A stretch of 23,308 nucleotides of DNA from a virus. Each line of letters starts with the position of its first letter. Position 1 is the stretch's first letter. Under the pieces are notes generated by a model that was not told the DNA's origin, searched no databases, and worked only from the letters and a program-made list of their open reading frames with translations. The stretch is from IMG/VR virus record IMGVR_UViG_3300031539_000324, positions 1-23,308 of that record, one strand, 5' to 3'. Below, in pieces: positions 7,443 to 15,917 of this stretch. A program made the position numbers and the translations under genes.

Positions 7443-7928
7443 GTGTCAAAAATTTTAAAGTTTTATGTCGATTACGGAAAGCTCGAAGATGCCGAGCGGT
7501 TCGGAATGGATGCCAAAGTTACAGTGCCATCCATTAAGAACACTGGATATCTTGGCGACGCTGGTATCGATCTTGCAGCACCATATCCAGTTACTGTTGC
7601 TGCACACTCGTTCAAGGTGATCGATACGTTCATCGGATTTGAATTTCCAGAAGGCGTGTTTGGGCTACTGTTTCCTCGTGGTGGCGATACATTCTTGCTT
7701 GGCGCAGGGGTGATCGATACTGGATACACAGGAACAATTAAATGCAAAGTGATTAACCCATACAATACAGATATGGAATTTAATGTTGGAGATTCTGTTG
7801 GCCAATTGATACTGGTTGAAATGCCGTTTTGTGAACCGCCAGAACTGGTCGCAGATACAAAAGAGAATATCCGCGAAAGCGAAAGGGGTGACAGTGGACG
7901 AATCACCAGCGAGTCTAATCTACGATAA
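7443..7928 (+). CDS. dut: Trimeric-type dUTPase, divergent motifs
   Basis: Hydrolyses dUTP to dUMP and pyrophosphate, keeping uracil out of phage DNA and feeding dUMP to the ThyX-like enzyme. In this 161-residue protein, motif 1 is GDAGIDL at 38-44, motif 2 is FPRGG at 77-81, motif 3 is GVIDTGYTGTIKC at 89-101 with the catalytic Asp92 and the uridine-pocket Tyr95, and motif 4 is VGDSVGQLIL at 115-124. Two departures stand out. The conserved Ser of PRSG is Gly80, and the C-terminal RGxGGFGSTG arm reads RGDSGRITS, so the stacking Phe is missing. Activity may therefore be altered. The start is GTG at 7443, with AGGAGG 5 bases upstream. Its end overlaps the next gene by 35 bases. Confidence 0.88.
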   Translation: MSKILKFYVDYGKLEDAERFGMDAKVTVPSIKNTGYLGDAGIDLAAPYPVTVAAHSFKVIDTFIGFEFPEGVFGLLFPRGGDTFLLGAGVIDTGYTGTIKCKVINPYNTDMEFNVGDSVGQLILVEMPFCEPPELVADTKENIRESERGDSGRITSESNLR

Positions 7929-8784
7929 AACATATTACACGAGTTATGGTAAGGATGGACAGCCGTACATTGGTAATCTTGCCATTATGAACACGATGGA
8001 AAACGTAGCTCATTATCTGGTTAAGAAATACAAGCCGAAAACACATATCGATGTTGGTTGTGCTATGGGAATCTTAATGTATACAATGGGCAAGCGTGGA
8101 GTCCGTTCTTATGGCGTCGAGGTATCAGATTACGCTGTGGAGAATGCACATCCATTGGTGAAGCGTAATATTTGGAATACCGACATTCTCGATATCGATA
8201 TCAGTGCAATTGATGTCAAATACGATATCGTCACTTGTATTGAGGTTATTGAGCATATACCAGAAAGGTGGGAAGATCATGTCCTAGATTTACTGTGTGC
8301 GTACAGTGACATTGTGTTTCTGTCATCGGAGCTAAACTTTGATGAGCCTACCCATGTCAATGTAAAACCGCTTGCATACTGGAAAGGCAGTATGCAAGAT
8401 CGCGGTTACATATCGGATATGGGCTACCCATCTGCTATTCCTTGGGGCAGAACGTTTGTCAAGGCAAACAGTAAAAAAGAAATCTCAGAGCTACTAGATA
8501 GATCAAGCAGAATCGATGTACTTACAAGAGATAATTACAGTTGTTTTCTGTGTGGTAAATCTGGTGTTCAGGTGCATGAGATTATTCCTAAATCCGCATT
8601 CGGAAAGAGTCAACTAGATAAGTGCTTTGAACCAAAGAATCGAGTGTGTTTGTGCCCAGAGCATCATGGGCCAGCCCACACTAAAGATGCAAGAACTCTA
8701 CTGATTAGCTTAATGTCAAGACGTTTCGGCTATAAATATGACGAGCCGATATATCAAAAATATATGGAGGATTCAAATGGGTAA
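7894..8784 (+). CDS. SAM-dependent methyltransferase fused to HNH endonuclease domain
   Basis: A 296-residue two-domain protein. The N-terminal ~190 residues are a class I SAM methyltransferase: HIDVGCAMG at 51-59 (glycine-rich loop with Ala for Gly), YGVEVSDYAVE as the acidic-strand region, CIEVIEHIP at 115-123, and a THVNVKPLAYW segment seen in small-molecule or sugar O/N-methyltransferases. No DPPY/NPPY or PCQ motif typical of DNA methylases is visible. The C-terminal ~85 residues are an HNH domain: CFLCG (C217, C220), VHEIIPKS with catalytic His228, Asn249, then RVCLCPEHHGPAH with C254, H257 and H258. The start is GTG 7894, with AAAGGGG 5 bases upstream; an ATG at 7816 lies deeper in dut without support. 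It overlaps ssb by 8 bases. Confidence 0.82.
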   Translation: MDESPASLIYDKTYYTSYGKDGQPYIGNLAIMNTMENVAHYLVKKYKPKTHIDVGCAMGILMYTMGKRGVRSYGVEVSDYAVENAHPLVKRNIWNTDILDIDISAIDVKYDIVTCIEVIEHIPERWEDHVLDLLCAYSDIVFLSSELNFDEPTHVNVKPLAYWKGSMQDRGYISDMGYPSAIPWGRTFVKANSKKEISELLDRSSRIDVLTRDNYSCFLCGKSGVQVHEIIPKSAFGKSQLDKCFEPKNRVCLCPEHHGPAHTKDARTLLISLMSRRFGYKYDEPIYQKYMEDSNG

Positions 8785-9184
8785 AGATTTCAATCAGTTC
8801 ACAGCAGTTGGTCGCCTTGGTAGTGATCCTGAGATGTCGTACACGAACACCGGCACGGCGATTGTGAAGTTTAACATTGCTAACGGCAATGATTACTACG
8901 ACAAAGAATCCAAGGCGTGGGTCGAGCGAACAAACTGGATTCCGGTTATTATGTTTGGCAAGTATGCTGAAGGTGTTGCGGAGCGTTATCACAAGGGAGA
9001 TAAGGTACTTGTTAGCTGCGAGGTCAGCGTTGATAAGTACACCGATAAATCTGGAGAGAAGCGCACCGGCTATAGTTTTAAAGCCAACACTGTTCAGATG
9101 CTAGAAAAGTCTAACAAGGATAATTCTGGCGGCTCCTCATACGAGCCTGATGTCAGCGCCGAGGAAGATACCCCCTGGGACTAA
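8777..9184 (+). CDS. ssb: Single-stranded DNA-binding protein
   Basis: A 135-residue bacterial-type SSB. The OB fold is evident from FTAVGRLGSDPEMSYTNTG near residues 8-26, a NWIPVIMFGKYAEGVAERYHKGDKVLV stretch split across strands at about 53-80, and a TGYSFKANTVQML strand ending the fold near 114. A short Ser/Gly-rich linker leads to an acidic tail ending EEDTPWD, comparable to the DDDIPF tip that recruits replication partners. ATG 8777 is chosen over the in-frame ATG at 8738 because GGAGG lies 6 bases upstream. It would coat single strands for RecA, RecJ and primase. It is the last gene of the dut operon, followed directly by a terminator. Confidence 0.95.
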   Translation: MGKDFNQFTAVGRLGSDPEMSYTNTGTAIVKFNIANGNDYYDKESKAWVERTNWIPVIMFGKYAEGVAERYHKGDKVLVSCEVSVDKYTDKSGEKRTGYSFKANTVQMLEKSNKDNSGGSSYEPDVSAEEDTPWD

Positions 9185-9196
9185 CCCAAAAGAAGT

Positions 9197-9233
9197 AAAA
9201 AAGGGTGGAGAACAAAATCTCCACCCTTTTTTT
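9197..9233. terminator. Bidirectional intrinsic terminator
   Basis: GGGTGGAGA at 9203-9211 pairs perfectly with TCTCCACCC at 9218-9226 around a 6-base loop. Six A bases precede the stem and seven T bases follow it, so it terminates both the rightward dut-ssb operon and the leftward operon whose last stop codon sits at 9232-9234. Confidence 0.95.
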
Positions 9234-9726
9234 ATTCGGTAAAAAAGTGACCCGATGCTTGCAAGGCATCCCGAACCTTCTCAAGCGTTTCGCCTAGCCA
9301 GTTCAATCCCATCCATTGAGATGGGTCTTTAACTCGTATGTCGGTAGGATGCAAGCCGACACCCCACAGTCTATCGTGTGGGCTTGCTTCGACAATCATC
9401 CTGGGGCGAGTGTTCAGGAGATAGCTTCTATGGTATACATTTTGCGTGTACTTAGCCATGTTACCATTGAATACTATATCTCTTGCGGCTGAACGCCATA
9501 CCTCATCCTTGAATCCCTTGACTTTGCGACCCAGGCGCTTCTGCTCTCTTGGATCGCTAGTCATCATAATCAACAGCCTAGTCTCGCGATCGCCAAACAG
9601 TAATGCTTTCTCAGACATCATATACTGTTCGGCGCACCCATACACGATGCCATCAATTGTAAATGGCGAACTATCCCATTGGGATAAAGGCCCACCCCAA
9701 AACGCCACTACATCATTATCGTACAT
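9232..9726 (-). CDS. NADAR-domain (YbiA/RibX-like) N-glycosidase
   Basis: A 164-residue single-domain protein that closely follows the NADAR (DUF1768) pattern: FWGGPLSQW near residue 9, GCAEQYMMSEKA near 30, DPREQKRLGRKVKGF near 58, NMAKYTQN near 88, LLNTRP near 103, EASPHDRLWGVGLHP near 113 and GLNWLGETLEKVRD near the end. Characterised relatives cleave N-glycosidic bonds of riboflavin intermediates (YbiA) or remove ADP-ribose from guanine bases, including within DNA. In a phage, reversal of a host ADP-ribosyl-DNA toxin or NAD/ADP-ribose metabolism are plausible roles, but neither is shown here. The start is ATG 9726, with GAAAGG 5 bases upstream. It follows the two small paralog-like genes and ends inside the shared terminator. 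Confidence 0.9.
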   Translation of the reverse strand: MYDNDVVAFWGGPLSQWDSSPFTIDGIVYGCAEQYMMSEKALLFGDRETRLLIMMTSDPREQKRLGRKVKGFKDEVWRSAARDIVFNGNMAKYTQNVYHRSYLLNTRPRMIVEASPHDRLWGVGLHPTDIRVKDPSQWMGLNWLGETLEKVRDALQASGHFFTE

Positions 9727-9728
9727 GA

Positions 9729-10073
9729 TTACCTTTCCAGTCGTGTTCGTTTCGCGCGCTGGCGAATCAGTATTTCTGATGTCAAATCATCGGCTATTCG
9801 ATCTACCGCATCGAATATATGGTGCATCGACATGAGGCCAACCAGTATTCCATCTTCGCTGATGGTATACTGTTCATCCATGACCTCAACAGTAGCGAAC
9901 ATCTCTTTTCCCTGTTGGAGCAGCTCGGTGATCACGGCATCGACCAGAAAACGATTCGCAAAGTAGTAGATAACATCTACATTCTTGATATCGTTGCTTA
10001 CCAGCTTCTTTGCGGTGTTCGATGCTTGAATATCCGGAATGCTCGTCCTTCCATCCCACACTAGCCTAAGCAT
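9729..10073 (-). CDS. Hypothetical protein, tandem paralog B
   Basis: An unrecognised 114-residue protein. It opens MLRLVWDG, similar to MLTVIWDQ of the gene just upstream, and both continue with a Ser/Pro loop, an Asn-Asp-rich strand and a hydrophobic helix at comparable positions, suggesting an old tandem duplication. Sequence identity is low beyond the first ten residues. The C-terminal 20 residues are strongly basic (RQRAKRTRLER). ATG 10073 has AAGGGG 5 bases upstream and overlaps the preceding gene by 8 bases; only 2 bases separate its stop from the NADAR start. Confidence 0.65.
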   Translation of the reverse strand: MLRLVWDGRTSIPDIQASNTAKKLVSNDIKNVDVIYYFANRFLVDAVITELLQQGKEMFATVEVMDEQYTISEDGILVGLMSMHHIFDAVDRIADDLTSEILIRQRAKRTRLER

Positions 10074-10404
10074 TATTTCCCCTTGTTATTGATTGTTTAC
10101 GCTTTTTCACTTGCAGCCTAATTAAATCCATGCCAATATCAAACGGAATATCAATCAGCGCACCACTGTTTTTAACGTTGCCATACCTATTGCATCGATG
10201 TATAGAGCCATTGATATCAACCTGAACGTAGTCGGCAACATCCAACTGTAGGGCGCGCAATCGAATTGCGAGCAATACGCAATCGTTAGATACATGAACC
10301 GATTTGTTCTGGAGTACGATATCGCTATCTACTATCGAATCAGCGAAATCCATTGCGTGTTCATCGCACACCGGCGATTTTTGATCCCATATTACTGTTA
10401 GCAT
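10066..10404 (-). CDS. Hypothetical protein, tandem paralog A
   Basis: A 112-residue unknown protein. The open frame continues upstream to 10542, but that extension translates a tRNA-like RNA and a poly-A run and is rejected. ATG 10404 has AAGGAA 6 bases upstream. The start MLTVIWDQKS resembles the next gene. The middle has a DYVQVDINGSIHRCNRYGN segment that reads like a beta hairpin with a single Cys, and the C-terminus is basic (VKKRKQSITRG). It lies directly downstream of the structured RNA block on the same strand, so the RNAs and this gene are probably on one transcript. Confidence 0.65.
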   Translation of the reverse strand: MLTVIWDQKSPVCDEHAMDFADSIVDSDIVLQNKSVHVSNDCVLLAIRLRALQLDVADYVQVDINGSIHRCNRYGNVKNSGALIDIPFDIGMDLIRLQVKKRKQSITRGNNA

Positions 10405-10470
10405 ATCAATTTCCTTGTCTAAAATTGGATACGCAAAAAAAAATAAACTATCCGGGCCATTTGACATCAG

Positions 10471-10542
10471 TGTACGTGATGGGACTCGAACCCATGTCTT
10501 CGGCGCGTCCGCTCGATGTTGTTCCGACTCAACTACACGCAC
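10471..10542 (-). ncRNA. tRNA-like RNA with hairpin in place of anticodon arm
   Basis: This 72-nt element has a full 7-bp acceptor (GTGCGTG with CACGTAC, one G-U pair) and discriminator A. The D arm is GTTG/CAAC with GG in the loop, and the T arm is ATGGG-TTCGAGT-CCCAT. The anticodon region cannot form a 5-bp stem with a 7-base loop: only three pairs form at normal register and there is no U33. Instead TCG(A)GCG pairs with CGCCGA around a GACG tetraloop. It would thus look like a tRNA at the elbow and acceptor but cannot decode. No CCA is encoded. It may be a degenerate tRNA or a deliberate mimic. Confidence 0.65.
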
Positions 10543-10550
10543 GAGATATA

Positions 10551-10685
10551 CCCTGTTCGCTGGTCAATCGGTTGAACCAGATTTCTCTGTAGCCGTCAAC
10601 CGATGTACTAAACCACTATAACGGCGAGCCTTATCCAAATGCATCCTAAAGGAGGTAGACAAATTTACTACTCCAACGAACAGGG
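10551..10685 (-). ncRNA. Structured RNA closed by 13-bp helix, possible pseudoknot
   Basis: On the minus strand CCCTGTTCGTTGG (10685-10673) pairs with CCAGCGAACAGGG (10563-10551), 13 pairs with one U-G; on the plus strand that position would be a C-A mismatch, so the minus strand is the structured one. Inside are an 8-bp stem ATCGGTTG/CAACCGAT (10604-10597 with 10574-10567) enclosing CAGA-GAAA-TCTG with a GNRA tetraloop (10589-10578), a 5-bp GCCGT/ACGGC (10625-10621 with 10596-10592) that crosses it to make a pseudoknot, and small hairpins at 10671-10655 and 10653-10644. ACCTCCTTT at 10656-10648 matches the 16S anti-Shine-Dalgarno. GGTTCAA next to the 3' closing strand recalls a T arm. No known RNA family is recognised. 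Confidence 0.6.
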
Positions 10686-10688
10686 CTG

Positions 10689-10761
10689 TGGGGACAGATG
10701 GATTTGAACCATCAACCAACAAGTTATGAGCCTGCTGCTCTGCCAATTGAGCTATATCCCC
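10689..10761 (-). tRNA. tRNA-Met (anticodon CAU)
   Basis: A complete 73-nt cloverleaf. The acceptor is GGGGATA with TGTCCCC and discriminator A. The D arm GCTC/GAGC has loop AATTGGCA. The anticodon stem GCAGG/CTTGT holds loop CTCATAA with anticodon CAU, the variable loop is TGGTT, and the T arm is GATGG-TTCAAAT-CCATC. The paired G1-C72 end and the lack of three G-C pairs under the anticodon argue against an initiator. Elongator Met is most likely; an Ile-decoding tRNA made by lysidine modification of C34 cannot be excluded by sequence. CCA is not encoded (ACA follows). Confidence 0.95.
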
Positions 10762-10766
10762 AAGCG

Positions 10767-10816
10767 CGAAGTGGAAGTTCAGCGTTGTGTTTCCTTTCTG
10801 AATAATATCCACTTCG
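10767..10816 (-). ncRNA. Long two-stem hairpin upstream of tRNA-Met
   Basis: CGAAGTGGA (10816-10808) pairs perfectly with TCCACTTCG (10775-10767). After a small internal loop TTCAG (10802-10798) pairs with CTGAA (10782-10778), capped by a 15-base purine-rich loop containing AAAGGAAAC. It sits 5 bases before the tRNA-Met 5' end. It could guide processing or be a separate RNA. Confidence 0.55.
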
Positions 10817-10821
10817 GCTAC

Positions 10822-10852
10822 GACAACTGACTAACCTCAATAGAACAGTGTC
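10822..10852 (-). ncRNA. Small hairpin in RNA block
   Basis: On the minus strand GACACTG pairs with CAG(T)TGTC, seven pairs with one bulged T, around a 16-base loop. It fills the gap between the 53-nt tRNA-like RNA and the hairpin at 10767-10816. On its own this could be chance; its weight comes from the packed arrangement. Confidence 0.4.
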
Positions 10853-10855
10853 AAT

Positions 10856-10908
10856 TTGTGGCGGCTGGAATCGAACCAACGATACATGCCCACGACAGCA
10901 TCGCCACA
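10856..10908 (-). ncRNA. 53-nt tRNA-like RNA lacking a D arm
   Basis: A 7-bp acceptor TGTGGCG/CGCCACA with discriminator A and a normal T arm GTTGG-TTCGATT-CCAGC are joined by only 21 bases instead of about 42. Those 21 bases form one hairpin, ATGC-TGTCGTGG-GCAT, with an 8-base loop, so there is no room for both a D arm and an anticodon arm. If the hairpin served as anticodon arm, T33 would precede CGT, but the loop is one base too large. It lies 6 bases after the stop codon of the gene at 10915. Confidence 0.65.
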
Positions 10909-10914
10909 CAAAAA

Positions 10915-11685
10915 TCATTCTTTCCAGTCTGGTTCTTCCATCCCAAGTGCTGCAATTCTGTCTAGAATCTCAGAGGCTGGAATCGAACGGGATTCACACA
11001 GCTTATCACTGGCAAACCTAGCAGAAACCAGGATGTTGTGATACACCGGCACGTTCAAATTCTCCACCGGATGCCATATGTATTGTGTTGCATCCACCGA
11101 TCTGTCCAGAGACACAACAAGAGGATATTCGGTTTCCGGATTGCGATTGATAAACAGCCTGTATTTCATACCTCTTGCGATTGCAGAGTCTAGGCTACTT
11201 CGCCATCCTGTCGTTTCCCCATCTGGCTCAAACGATCTTGCATCCATGACCCTGTATACATTACTGTGATGCTTAGGCGCGTCGAACAGCAGATGTACTG
11301 TAGATTGCACTCCATTACGGATATCAGTTCTTCTTCCAAGCGCATCGAGCAGGTTCTTGCTAAGCCGATGAAAGTACATGTTGGTGCCAGTGGTTGCAAT
11401 TTCGTTAGCGATAACCAACTTTCCAGTGTAGAAATCGCGGTACATCCATACAGAATCGTAGCTGAGTACGGTATCTCCTGCAATCTGAAAGTTCATTATC
11501 AGTGCCGTTTCCGAATCGCGATATTTGGCCAGCACCTCTTCTCCCTTGATGTGTATACCGACGAACCCCTTTATCGTTCCAGATATGTTGAGAGTCAGTA
11601 TACCTCTCGTTGCTTCATCTCTGGGCACTCCATTTGGAACGTAACTATATGGTATCTGCACATTATCCTCCATAGATAAGCTCAT
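10915..11685 (-). CDS. Hypothetical protein heading the RNA-block transcript
   Basis: A 256-residue protein (ATG 11685) that I do not recognise. The first half is rich in beta strands (GILTLNISGTIKGFVGIHIKGEE, split over two strands), and later segments mix strands with short helices; no catalytic motif, signal peptide or membrane segment is visible. The ATG at 11685 lacks a ribosome site, while an in-frame GTG at 11661 has GGAGG 5 bases upstream and may be the true start, giving 248 residues. It follows a strong promoter at 11718-11746 by about 26 bases and is directly followed by the structured RNA block, so one transcript may carry this mRNA, the tRNA-like RNAs and the two small paralogs. 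Confidence 0.7.
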   Translation of the reverse strand: MSLSMEDNVQIPYSYVPNGVPRDEATRGILTLNISGTIKGFVGIHIKGEEVLAKYRDSETALIMNFQIAGDTVLSYDSVWMYRDFYTGKLVIANEIATTGTNMYFHRLSKNLLDALGRRTDIRNGVQSTVHLLFDAPKHHSNVYRVMDARSFEPDGETTGWRSSLDSAIARGMKYRLFINRNPETEYPLVVSLDRSVDATQYIWHPVENLNVPVYHNILVSARFASDKLCESRSIPASEILDRIAALGMEEPDWKE

Positions 11686-11712
11686 CTGTGCGCTATGTGG
11701 CGCGTTTTACTG

Positions 11713-11782
11713 TTGACATTATAGCACGCACATAGCCATACGTCAAAATATGCCATATGGCTATGTGACGCTATTATGTCAA
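11713..11782. repeat. 70-bp near-perfect interrupted palindrome
   Basis: The outer arms are TTGACATTATAGC (11713-11725) and GCTATTATGTCAA (11770-11782), inverted copies with one mismatch. The inner arms CACATAGCCATA (11729-11740) and TATGGCTATGTG (11756-11767) are a perfect 12-bp inverted repeat, and GCCATATGGC (11752-11761) is a smaller palindrome within. The structure covers the leftward promoter at 11718-11746. It occupies most of the 140-base gap between the RNR stop and the next gene. Confidence 0.85.
11718..11746 (-). promoter_or_regulatory. Strong sigma70-type promoter inside the palindrome
   Basis: Reading leftward, TTGACG (11746-11741) and TATAAT (11723-11718) are exactly 17 bases apart, with a predicted start near 11711. 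Its spacer is one inner palindrome arm, so any protein binding the palindrome would block or modulate it. Confidence 0.85.
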
Positions 11783-11825
11783 GTGTGCAGCCAGCAACGA
11801 CGCATTATGTAAAGTTATCTATGGT

Positions 11826-14800
11826 CTATTTAACAAACGGAATTTGACATGCATCTCCATCGCAGTAAGCATCTACCAGTCTATCTACCGGAGCTACGTT
11901 TTTAATATTCAAATTCTTTAGTTTCGAATAATCAATTTTCATTTCCATTAAGCCGTAGCGAACTTCATTGATTTCCTCGTATGGCATCTGGGTGTACGCG
12001 CCGCCGCTAACTTCTGGCAACATTGAAACTGATTTCAGAGAGTGCTGGTAGTGGTCTAGCGCAATCGACAATTCCTGTGCCGTTGTCGATTCGGGGTTGA
12101 CGCTGATTGTAACTGACACACTATTGTCAGACCAATGGCGTTGCATCATGGCCGCAAGATTAAACTGTTCCCAAATAGTCAAATCTTTAGCACGGCGCAG
12201 ATTGTCTCCGGCATGGATTGGGAATTCAGCCACAACCGTATTTGGCGAATAATCATCTATCTCGATATGAACACCTGCTTCTCGTAAACGTTCTGCCAAG
12301 TGGCTATTATCCGAGAATCGCACACGACGAATGTAATATTCAGCAACAGGATGGTGAACCCCTGGTGTCGCACCGGCAACCAGAGATACCGTTCCAGATG
12401 GCTTGACGGTCGTGACGCGCACGCTCTCATTGACGCCGAACCAGTTGCTATATCTCTTATCGTAGTGCTTGACGTATGAATAACCATCCTCTGCCCACTT
12501 GACAAGTGTTCCCATGCCACGCGATGCGACAAACTGAGCGATGCCAGTCATCGATAGGCCAATGCGACGATTCTGCATCATAAGCTGTCGCGTACCAGGA
12601 TGTGCAATTTTCTCGCTGAGAAGCGTAATGGACTTCCCGTACAAGTATGCAAACTTAATACTACGTGCGAAATCGTAGAAGGAATCGTGTCGATTTGGAT
12701 ATAGCTCTACAAGCGTGCATTGCTTCGTGATTACGTTTCCAAATACACCCATATGTCGCATCGGCTCGTTGAAACAATATGTTGGCTCGCTGTCCGAGAT
12801 TAATTTGATGCTTACAACCCGTTGTCGTTTTGCCCTGCTGATCGGCTTTGAATTTTTATGGGCATGGTTTTCTTGATATTCAGAGCCAAACCGCTCGATA
12901 ACCTTTAGCCTTGTTTTTATTTTACTGCACTCGTAGCTAGGGATAAACATTCGCCACAAATCGTAATTTCTTCGTCCATAATTCGTGATTGTCCCAGTTG
13001 GCGACAACAATCGTATTGTAGCGTGGTTTACCCCGATTCTCCGCAATAGTATTTGCGCATCTCTCAGCTTTTGTTCTGACCCATACAACACATAATGTTG
13101 CGTGTTGGGGTTTTTAGCTATTGAACCATCTGCATCTATCCACCCACCCATGAACTCGGAAATACCATCTGCGTCCATACGCATGATTCGACTAGCAAGA
13201 CCGGCGTCATGATCTCGCAGTTGAACCGCAGTATCCATATCGATTTCCCCGCTAAAGTTTACCCTGCGGAACGGACGTGAATATCCAGCAGAATGCTGCT
13301 CTTTCCACATATTCCAGCCAGCATCTTGTCCTATAAAATATTCGTTCTCCTGAATAACCGCCAGTGCTTTTCTGTTGTCATCTATATATCCGTCACCAGT
13401 AAACCACCCAAGCTCGTATGCGTGTTTGTCACTGGTTCCGCCAGAATCTATTACTTCGAATTTCGGAAGAACCATTCCGACTTCGAGGGAATCCGTCGTG
13501 TGCGTTCGATACTTAGCCTGGGTTTTTGTTTTTGCAATCCATTCGTGTTTTGGGGTCGCATCTAAGTACGAACCATCCGATAGTGTCACCCTGTAAAGGC
13601 TTCCGGTTCCAGCCAAAAATGGAGTAACCTCAGACCACTCTTCTCCGTTCCAAATCTTAACGCGCTTATTAACCAAGTCGGAGATTCGGAATATACCATC
13701 TTCTGTTTGTATTTGCGTATCGCCAGCTACGCATAGCTCACCGCCAACACCAGCGGGCGACCATCCGTACAAAAACTGCTCGCCGCACTGTCCAGTCTCA
13801 ATCCCGCAAGACAACGAGATTCGATGGCTCGTAGGTACAGTACAACAATACACTTTGTCCTCTGTTCCAGCAGGCTCTATCTTGACAACTGTATTCCATT
13901 TTAACGTATATTGATATGTTGTCTTACACGTCAGGTGTAAGTTATCCAATCTGGCAAACTGTATCTGGTTAGACAAAACGATGCTTGCGTGTTGAGCAAT
14001 AGATAAACGCCAGCATTCTTTAGCTTTATATTCTCCATAACCATCGCCAAAATCGCGTATTCCTGCCTCGTGCGACATGGCAAGTTTTGAATGTACTCCG
14101 ATTGACTTTAGTAGTGTTTGTACATCTAATAGAAACTCGCGGCGTACAGATGAAAGTTGATATCCAAATCCATTATTCGTATCAAATGCCGTGCCATCGG
14201 AATCGAAGATTCCAGCAATTAACTCTAGTTTCGATTTTCTATTCCACCCAAATACCTCAAACGGAAGTTTATCTTTATATGTTGTTGCCCACGGCATAAT
14301 ATCATAATCTCTAGCGCGTAATCCTTGGATCACAACCACCGAGCGACCATTGCTGTATTCGCCATCCGTATAGTTTGGCTCGCTAATCATGTCGCTTCTT
14401 CCATCGCGTGCAGGAATCTCGGACAACGATTGCACGATTTTCTCGGCACATACTTTTTTTGTATCGTATAACCATAGCGCCGGTACAGTCCCATGAGAAG
14501 TACCATCTCCAAGCATAAATCCTTTTACATATGCGCCTGCAACATCTAAATCTCCATGAGACTCCGGGGCAGTAGATGATTGTAGTTTATCGCCAGCTAC
14601 AATATCTTTCGCCTGTCGAGAAGTGCCATCGTCAAGAACCATTGTGTGGTATGGCGTAACAAATAGCTCTGTTCCATCTTGAAGCTCAATTCGCAATACT
14701 TTTTGGTTGGTTCCAGTTACCCTAAAGTTGTCAATCGCAACCCACTGGCTACCGTCCCATATATCGGCGGTCTCTCCAACCAAATCAACAATGGGTACAT

Positions 14801-15917
14801 CTCCGTTCTTGGTGCGTATAAGCGTATCGCCACGGAAGCATGGATTAACTCCAGTAGCTAAGTCACGATGATCTTCAATGCCGTTCATACGAGCATACTT
14901 ATTCGCGTTTTCTAACCACACGAATCCAGGCTCGCCATTATCCATAATTCTTTCAACAAACGGCTTGTAATCCATGCCAACGTTAGCAAACACGCTATTG
15001 TTTGAAGACCATCCCCACTCCTTGCGTTCTGGATTCTGCGTGTAATTTTTAAGATTAGCGAACTCAGTATCGAATGGACTTCCAAGGGCAATTTCGCTGC
15101 TTCTCCGCACGTTACCGGCAACAACTACAACGCCAATCATATTCATGATGTCAGTGATGATTCTACCGGAAATGCGATCTCCATGTGCATCGTCCAAAAT
15201 TGTACGAACCTTATCGTGAAGCCACTCCAAAGGTTCATATCCACTAGCCACCCCGCCAAATCCGCGGATTAACGAACCCTTTGGGCGAATCAAAGAGTAG
15301 TCGAATGTTACGGCGTGCTGGACATCGCCATTCGGTATGTAGGACGACACGAGTCGGCCTATCGAATCTGCCCATCCTTCTCGGCTGTCAGGTATGACAA
15401 ATATATTGAGATCGGTATCTCGTGGCTTAACAATCTCTACTAGGCCAGCGCCACGAATATCAAATCCAACACCAACGCCGAGCATCAACATCTCCATGAC
15501 CCACTCAAAGATATGGCCTTTGTGATCTCGAATTGATTGCGTGCTGATGAAACCACAATTGTTCGTTGCCTCTACCATATTACGCTCATGTACTGATGGG
15601 GCACCCATATGATACAATCCGCGTCCTGGTGGACTCCACTTCAAGTTAAACAGTCTATCGTATGCCTCGTGTGCTGACTCTTTTGCTTTATCATCTGACC
15701 ACGGTACACCATGTTCCGATGCGTAATCTTTCTGTATTGTGTACATTCCATTGATAATTCTCTCGCAAGCGTCTGCCCAAGATTCTAGATTACCATCAGG
15801 TTTTACCCTAGCATACGTGCGATAAAATGTCACAGCCCCAAGAGAGCCAAACCCAAATGGCTCTGGACGATCTCGATATCGATCTACAAACTCATGGTCA
15901 AGATGAAAAGATAGCAT
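11826..15917 (-). CDS. nrdJ: Class II (B12-dependent) ribonucleotide reductase with two inteins
   Basis: A 1363-residue precursor of an adenosylcobalamin-dependent reductase resembling the monomeric Lactobacillus leichmannii RTPR; removing both inteins leaves 674 residues. It reduces ribonucleotides to deoxyribonucleotides by a thiyl radical and needs no oxygen or separate small subunit. Seen: NNCGF with redox Cys121, the LMLGVGVGFD segment near 145, an allosteric-site region following it, the catalytic NPCGEQ loop (split by intein 1 at its Cys, residue 360/711), VKPSGTVSLVAGATPG near 1171, and the C-terminal shuttle pair C1352 and C1357 in YCDGDAC. Inteins occupy residues 360-710 and 729-1066. 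The ATG at 15917 has GGGGGA about 7 bases upstream. Its promoter is at 16016-16044. It is translated away from the head genes. Confidence 0.93.
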   Translation of the reverse strand: MLSFHLDHEFVDRYRDRPEPFGFGSLGAVTFYRTYARVKPDGNLESWADACERIINGMYTIQKDYASEHGVPWSDDKAKESAHEAYDRLFNLKWSPPGRGLYHMGAPSVHERNMVEATNNCGFISTQSIRDHKGHIFEWVMEMLMLGVGVGFDIRGAGLVEIVKPRDTDLNIFVIPDSREGWADSIGRLVSSYIPNGDVQHAVTFDYSLIRPKGSLIRGFGGVASGYEPLEWLHDKVRTILDDAHGDRISGRIITDIMNMIGVVVVAGNVRRSSEIALGSPFDTEFANLKNYTQNPERKEWGWSSNNSVFANVGMDYKPFVERIMDNGEPGFVWLENANKYARMNGIEDHRDLATGVNPCFRGDTLIRTKNGDVPIVDLVGETADIWDGSQWVAIDNFRVTGTNQKVLRIELQDGTELFVTPYHTMVLDDGTSRQAKDIVAGDKLQSSTAPESHGDLDVAGAYVKGFMLGDGTSHGTVPALWLYDTKKVCAEKIVQSLSEIPARDGRSDMISEPNYTDGEYSNGRSVVVIQGLRARDYDIMPWATTYKDKLPFEVFGWNRKSKLELIAGIFDSDGTAFDTNNGFGYQLSSVRREFLLDVQTLLKSIGVHSKLAMSHEAGIRDFGDGYGEYKAKECWRLSIAQHASIVLSNQIQFARLDNLHLTCKTTYQYTLKWNTVVKIEPAGTEDKVYCCTVPTSHRISLSCGIETGQCGEQFLYGWSPAGVGGELCVAGDTQIQTEDGIFRISDLVNKRVKIWNGEEWSEVTPFLAGTGSLYRVTLSDGSYLDATPKHEWIAKTKTQAKYRTHTTDSLEVGMVLPKFEVIDSGGTSDKHAYELGWFTGDGYIDDNRKALAVIQENEYFIGQDAGWNMWKEQHSAGYSRPFRRVNFSGEIDMDTAVQLRDHDAGLASRIMRMDADGISEFMGGWIDADGSIAKNPNTQHYVLYGSEQKLRDAQILLRRIGVNHATIRLLSPTGTITNYGRRNYDLWRMFIPSYECSKIKTRLKVIERFGSEYQENHAHKNSKPISRAKRQRVVSIKLISDSEPTYCFNEPMRHMGVFGNVITKQCTLVELYPNRHDSFYDFARSIKFAYLYGKSITLLSEKIAHPGTRQLMMQNRRIGLSMTGIAQFVASRGMGTLVKWAEDGYSYVKHYDKRYSNWFGVNESVRVTTVKPSGTVSLVAGATPGVHHPVAEYYIRRVRFSDNSHLAERLREAGVHIEIDDYSPNTVVAEFPIHAGDNLRRAKDLTIWEQFNLAAMMQRHWSDNSVSVTISVNPESTTAQELSIALDHYQHSLKSVSMLPEVSGGAYTQMPYEEINEVRYGLMEMKIDYSKLKNLNIKNVAPVDRLVDAYCDGDACQIPFVK
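12720..13733 (-). other. Intein 2 (338 aa) with LAGLIDADG homing endonuclease, Gln-terminal
   Basis: Residues 729-1066 of the RNR precursor. Block A starts at Cys729 (CVAGDTQIQTEDG) and block B is near YLDATPKHEW with His791. Two LAGLIDADG helices are visible: ELGWFTGDGYIDD at 835-847 and EFMGGWIDADGSIA at 921-934. Block F/G reads PTYCFNEPMRHMGVFG and ends VITKQ, followed by extein Cys1067. The last residue is Gln instead of Asn, and the residue before it is Lys instead of His. It is inserted only 18 extein residues after intein 1, at GEL|CTLVE. Confidence 0.88.
13788..14840 (-). other. Intein 1 (351 aa) with LAGLIDADG homing endonuclease, Gln-terminal
   Basis: Residues 360-710 of the RNR precursor, inserted exactly before the catalytic Cys of NP|CGEQ. 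Block A is CFRGDTLIRTKNG at 360-372 and block B is ELFVTPYHTMV with His424. The LAGLIDADG helices are VKGFMLGDGTSHG at 464-476 and LELIAGIFDSDGTAFD at 564-579. Block F/G reads KVYCCTVPTSHRISLSCG and ends IETGQ before extein Cys711. The terminal Gln with Gly before it replaces the usual His-Asn, as known in a minority of splicing-competent inteins such as the iridescent virus RNR intein. Confidence 0.9.

Follow-up and report, generated by a model that had tools for sequence, protein, structure and literature searches.

Genomic context of the element

The window, by which we mean the whole stretch of DNA analysed here, comprises the 23,308 bases of a virus record (IMGVR_UViG_3300031539_000324) and comes from an uncultured phage. 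Its plus strand carries terminase, portal and head protease genes, and its minus-strand genes include thymidylate synthase, a RecA-like gene and ribonucleotide reductase. Both ARAGORN and Rfam place two tRNA genes on the minus strand, a tRNA-Met with a CAU anticodon (10688-10761) and a tRNA-Val with a GAC anticodon (10470-10542). The element under study, a structured RNA domain of 135 nt on the same strand (10551-10685), lies directly downstream of the former and directly upstream of the latter. It occupies 135 of the 145 nt of the spacer between these co-oriented tRNAs, starting 2 nt past tRNA-Met and stopping 8 nt before tRNA-Val. Positions within the element are numbered along the minus strand, so that position p is window coordinate 10686 minus p.

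Searching the region 9000-12000, we found that the best promoter-like site is an 11/12 match with an extended -10 on the minus strand (11718-11746). The terminator-site search gave an intrinsic-terminator-like hairpin of 15 pairs (9197-9232, minus), which is a possible transcript end. Promoter-like sites in this region are not commoner than in shuffled sequence (5 observed, 7.1 expected), while terminator-like sites are (5 observed, 2.0 expected). The promoter-like site at 11746-11718 and the terminator-like site at 9232-9197 could, as judged by their motifs, bound one minus-strand transcript. The order along this candidate transcript is a 256-aa frame, a tRNA-like stretch, a hairpin, tRNA-Met, the element, tRNA-Val and three small frames. 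The 256-aa frame near the cluster had no match in Pfam or PHROGs. The hairpin, which occupies part of the preceding spacer immediately before the 5′ end of tRNA-Met (10767-10816, minus), is closed by 9 bp and has a fold z of -3.81.

Predicted fold

The minus strand of the element is predicted to fold at -46.3 kcal/mol (z -3.48) and the plus strand at -38.8 kcal/mol (z -3.73), each of them beating 200 of 200 shuffles. An earlier note on this DNA, made from the sequence, had named a folding energy no better than that of shuffled sequence among the outcomes that would speak against a structured RNA, and on energy the element came through. The same note held that the structure is consistent on the minus strand only, which was too strong since both strands beat all 200 shuffles, although the minus strand is indeed the more stable one.

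The ends of the element are joined by a closing helix of 13 bp with one U-G pair, formed by a 5′ arm at 10673-10685 (CCCUGUUCGUUGG) and a 3′ arm at 10551-10563 (CCAGCGAACAGGG), both on the minus strand, and the flanks add a 14th pair, G-U. As the earlier note had proposed, all 13 pairs are predicted, with pair probabilities of 0.89-1.00 both when the element is folded alone and when it is folded in a 320-nt piece with both tRNAs. In this longer context the element domain forms, as do the acceptor and T arm of tRNA-Met. Inside the closing helix lies a stem that had been described as having 8 bp; the stem is present, but it comprises nine Watson-Crick pairs (probability 0.71-0.95) between element positions 82-90 (10596-10604, minus) and 111-119 (10567-10575, minus). 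It carries the GNRA-capped hairpin of the earlier description, CAGA-GAAA-UCUG (10578-10589, minus), which is predicted with a probability of 0.82-0.97. The first hairpin of the multiloop (element positions 23-56; 10630-10663, minus) is found in the minimum free energy fold and is weaker. Folded in this way, the element would be a compact RNA domain clamped by a long helix.

A pseudoknot had also been suggested, in the form of a crossing helix of 5 bp between GCCGU (element 61-65; 10621-10625, minus) and ACGGC (element 90-94; 10592-10596, minus). When this pairing was treated as a nested alternative its probability was 0.047, and when the upstream strand was shuffled 5000 times, 1226 of the shuffles paired equally well with the same loop. 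Moreover, the pairing is left with 4 bp because A90 already belongs to the 9-bp stem. Thus, although the two pentamers are complementary, the modelling does not support a pseudoknot as a feature of the element.

The apical part of the first hairpin contains the nonamer ACCUCCUUU (10648-10656, minus), which we take to resemble the anti-Shine-Dalgarno tail of 16S rRNA, a resemblance noticed after the fact. It occurs once in the window, counting both strands, where 0.11 occurrences are expected, and at least once in 9 of 100 shuffles. Its CCUCC is partly to largely paired in the predicted ensemble (within ACCUCC, five of the six bases have an unpaired probability of at most 0.32), and the UUU is open.

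Improbability of the closing helix

The closing helix framing the spacer between the two tRNAs is the standout feature of this locus. The 145-nt spacer was dinucleotide-shuffled 20,000 times and its two outer 20-nt ends were examined for helices: 2 shuffles matched the score of the closing helix, and in 32 the best end-to-end helix had 13 or more pairs. For comparison, we turned to the window and to stretches of five phages and surveyed every spacer of 60-350 nt that separates adjacent co-oriented tRNAs. This gave 21 spacers, of which 20 came from phages 133, Pontus and phiAS5, the T4 and PAU stretches having none in range; stretches of Contagion and KVP40 were left out, as no tRNA is annotated there. 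With a score of 34, the closing helix of the element is the strongest of the 21, the runner-up scoring 18 in a control set in which several spacers contain annotated genes.

Fold energy sets the element apart less clearly. The z of the whole spacer is -3.51, and two of the 20 control spacers are lower (-4.59 and -3.84). Among 3092 overlapping 135-nt windows taken from both strands, 33 fall further below the G+C trend than the element does, which places it at about the top 1%. The closing helix is the window's only uninterrupted helix of its score at a span of 60-200; a helix of equal strength and span was present at least once in 51 of 200 shuffled windows. What carries weight, therefore, is how closely the helix fits the ends of the tRNAs, because fold energy is less telling and equally strong helices arise in those 51 shuffled windows.

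Search for relatives and known families

In scans of the viral_contigs (IMG/VR) collection with the 256-aa protein, the reductase C-terminus and the large terminase, the only contig found was IMGVR_UViG_3300031565_000153. It differs from the window at 11 of 7,880 bases, one of which lies in the element. This change, a G to U at element position 57 (minus strand), touches neither the closing helix nor the 9-bp stem nor the GAAA hairpin; the predicted fold of the variant keeps all three, and the change is uninformative about structure. Since the only relative found is near-identical, it is too similar to show covariation or to prove selection on the element. Searches of the phages collection gave 2142 matching records for RecA, 769 for terminase and 1180 for reductase, all below 60% identity, and no match for the 114-aa gene that follows tRNA-Val.

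Nucleotide searches and pattern scans gave a similar picture. With blastn, the 461-nt stretch that includes the tRNAs matched 929 records, and among the 20 matches listed it was mainly the tRNA parts that aligned. The spacer alone matched four phage and two plasmid records over 23-25 nt (E 0.1-5), none of them credible; the one of the four phage matches that we inspected lies inside an open frame. A first pattern scan recovered the near-identical contig and one stretch that has no tRNA and folds no better than its shuffles (z 0.49), and another pattern scan of the element recovered IMGVR_UViG_3300031565_000153 only. A further one gave 89 stretches, 80 of them listed. When 101 loci were scanned by script, the motif lay between tRNAs only in the element's contig; twelve other loci share the spacing of 6 but lack a tRNA in the surrounding 1 kb, and the single further locus with a tRNA that close has a spacing of 10. 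One more scan found two bacterial stretches. We built a covariance model, R1, from the two near-identical copies of the element. Neither bacterial stretch matches this model, and against the window and 29 chosen loci (of about 110) it matches only the two copies. In nine whole phage records, the sole match to R1 was at chance level (E 1.84, phage DSL-LC01), and it had no match in the T4 record.

Rfam 15 returned nothing at the gathering score within the element, and across the whole window only the two tRNAs scored above gathering. At E values up to 10, a single chance-level match touches the element, snoR10 (E 9.9), on the opposite strand. The earlier view that this is a structured phage RNA outside the known families is thus upheld as far as tested, that is, against Rfam and the YrlA model considered below. 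GOLLD RNA, which is also structured and in some cases lies in the vicinity of phage tRNAs, is far larger than the element, which has no Rfam match. An RNA of this phage is not named in the open-licence literature that we searched, by which we make no claim that it is unpublished.

Four other classes were considered and rejected. A packaging RNA of the phi29 type had no Rfam match; for a miniature transposon, no target-site duplication was apparent by eye; and for an intrinsic terminator, the element is not among the terminator-like sites found and has no T run. As for a coding sequence, among the listed minus-strand frames a single one, of 82 aa, spans most of the element, and it starts upstream and crosses tRNA-Met.

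Comparison with T4 rnaC and rnaD

In its place and size, the element most resembles rnaC (species 1 RNA) and rnaD (species 2 RNA) of phage T4. In the T4 record, rnaD (119 nt) and rnaC (139 nt) follow tRNA-Arg with spacings of 1 and 6 nt. Like the element, they belong to a phage tRNA cluster, lie on the tRNA strand and are near a tRNA end, and at 135 nt the element falls within their range of about 120-140 nt. However, the T4 RNAs come after the last tRNA, whereas the element lies between two, and rnaC has a regular T-arm sequence (CCGGG-UUCGAAU-CCCGG), which the element lacks. The T4 RNAs are also reported as expressed, whereas the element is a predicted RNA. A T4 review gives the biological roles of rnaC and rnaD as unknown (PMC3014915), and a 2022 study classes both as late RNAs and reports Northern-blot validation (PMC9697503). 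Homology to rnaC and rnaD was tested with the two-copy model R1 and was not found, so that we liken the element to them by place and size and do not call it a member of their family.

Possible origin and fate of the element

The explanation that we tentatively favour, and regard as quite possible, is that a phage transcript carries the element as a structured RNA domain along with tRNA-Met and tRNA-Val, and that tRNA processing releases it as a discrete stable RNA. The steps that we infer run from transcription through processing and stability to any function. The element would be transcribed together with both tRNAs; 3′-end processing of tRNA-Met would cut 2 nt ahead of the closing helix, and RNase P acting at the 5′ end of tRNA-Val would cut 8 nt past it. 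With its two ends shielded by the closing helix, the element would then persist as a discrete stable RNA of about 135-145 nt, which might act in trans or as a protein-bound RNA, with T4 rnaC and rnaD as the precedent for its place and size.

Several lines of evidence point to a discrete RNA of this kind: the framing by co-oriented tRNAs, the rarity of so good a helix among the 20,000 spacer shuffles, its score of nearly twice that of the next spacer, and the same fold in the 320-nt context. The promoter-like and terminator-like sites, which could bound the transcript, and the layout in T4 are also consistent with it. The reading is weakened because only one near-identical relative was found, because other parts of the window fold further below the G+C trend and shuffled windows hold helices as strong, and because the T4 record has no match to the model; it is further weakened by the two control spacers with lower z and by promoter-like sites no commoner than in shuffles.

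The main rival, which we find rather unlikely but take seriously, is a cis-acting structured spacer that stops the two tRNA precursors from misfolding with one another, offers a cleavage site and is then discarded, with no function of its own. This view is helped by the preceding spacer, in which the hairpin closed by 9 bp stands beside tRNA-Met, and it agrees with the 320-nt prediction, where the acceptor and T arm of tRNA-Met form alongside the domain. Yet 135 nt with several internal stems would seem to exceed what a spacer needs, and the 20 spacers from three other phages, some of which hold annotated genes, are without such a closing helix.

We consider it improbable that the element is neutral intergenic sequence with an inverted repeat that arose by chance. 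About a quarter of the shuffled windows do contain a helix as strong, and conservation is not demonstrable; but the ends of the element nearly coincide with the ends of two tRNAs, and among the spacer shuffles a helix as good is very rare.

Equally doubtful, in our judgement, is an expanded or decayed tRNA, that is, a tRNA gene with insertions that kept a 9-bp acceptor and acquired an enlarged T loop. The motif behind this idea, GGUUCAA (10572-10578, minus), is real, as the earlier note had observed. The minus strand of the window has nine GGUUCRA sites, four of them in this tRNA cluster, one being that of the element, and the T arm would adjoin the 3′ strand of the acceptor without a linker. 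T4 rnaC likewise has a T-arm-like hairpin near its 3′ end, as judged from its sequence and fold. Against a tRNA-like RNA, however, stand a T loop of 11-13 nt in place of 7 and the sharing of the motif's bases with the 9-bp stem, in which they are locked. A 5-bp T stem with a 7-nt UUCRANY loop is absent from the element, and a fold constrained to form a 9-bp acceptor together with a T arm of 5 bp and an 11-nt loop reached -40.3 kcal/mol, 6 kcal/mol worse than the unconstrained -46.3. Neither ARAGORN nor Rfam at E values up to 10 found a tRNA there. The resemblance to tRNA (RF00005), which consists of the GGUUCRA motif and the location among tRNAs, is therefore a weak lead, given the size of the loop, the lack of a regular D or anticodon arm and the lack of a model match.

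The element had been proposed as a third tRNA-like RNA, a count that overlooks a 52-nt tRNA-like stretch upstream (10857-10908, minus). This stretch has a perfect 7-bp acceptor (UGUGGCG/CGCCACA) and the T arm GUUGG-UUCGAUU-CCAGC, with a single short hairpin where the D and anticodon arms would be. It had no ARAGORN call and no Rfam tRNA match, and the fold of a 54-nt version (10858-10911) does not clearly outdo its shuffles (z -1.03), of which 31 of 200 fold as well. From its sequence, the stretch may be what deletion has left of a tRNA gene, or a miniature mimic of a tRNA.

A Y RNA-like molecule of the YrlA type, with a stem pairing its ends and a tRNA-like module, binding the Ro60/Rsr ring protein, seems very unlikely. 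YrlA RNAs are described as 90-150 nt long with a large stem joining the 5′ and 3′ ends and a tRNA-like domain (PMC8394870). The element fits in its length and in its closing stem, but not in the rest: the YrlA model (RF02553) has no match in it, its best hit in the window being 8.9 bits inside tRNA-Met against a cut-off of 69, in a test of unproven sensitivity, since none of its 14 control genomes passed the cut-off either. Nor does the closing stem enclose a regular tRNA-like module, a T arm of the UUCRANY type with a 7-nt loop being absent there. The Ro60-type family had no Pfam match among the nine proteins scanned from the window, which is a fragment.

Very improbable too, and the most speculative extension of the discrete-RNA reading, is that a phage stable RNA freed by tRNA processing would bind mRNAs at their Shine-Dalgarno sites through ACCUCCUUU and thereby redirect translation in the infected cell.

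If the element were comparable to the T4 RNAs, phage tRNA clusters might be a recurrent home of unannotated RNAs, made by tRNA processing with no promoter of their own. A helix-clamped domain between two tRNAs of a phage to which the searched collections gave no close relative would suggest such recurrence. Spacers between tRNAs could be surveyed by the simple closing-helix test that we used for the element.

Other features of the window

Four further stretches drew our attention. At 11670-11825 on the minus strand, nested inverted repeats of 10, 13 and 17 nt surround the best promoter-like site of 9000-12000, and the strongest-folding 135-nt window of the whole stretch falls here; this is perhaps operator DNA rather than RNA. 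Next to it, the ribonucleotide reductase frame (11826-15917, minus; 1363 aa) appears by eye to contain two inteins. A NADAR-domain gene (PF08719; 9232-9726, minus) directly precedes the terminator-like hairpin. On the plus strand, a frame at 7816-8784 has a methyltransferase domain followed, as judged by eye, by an HNH nuclease-like motif.
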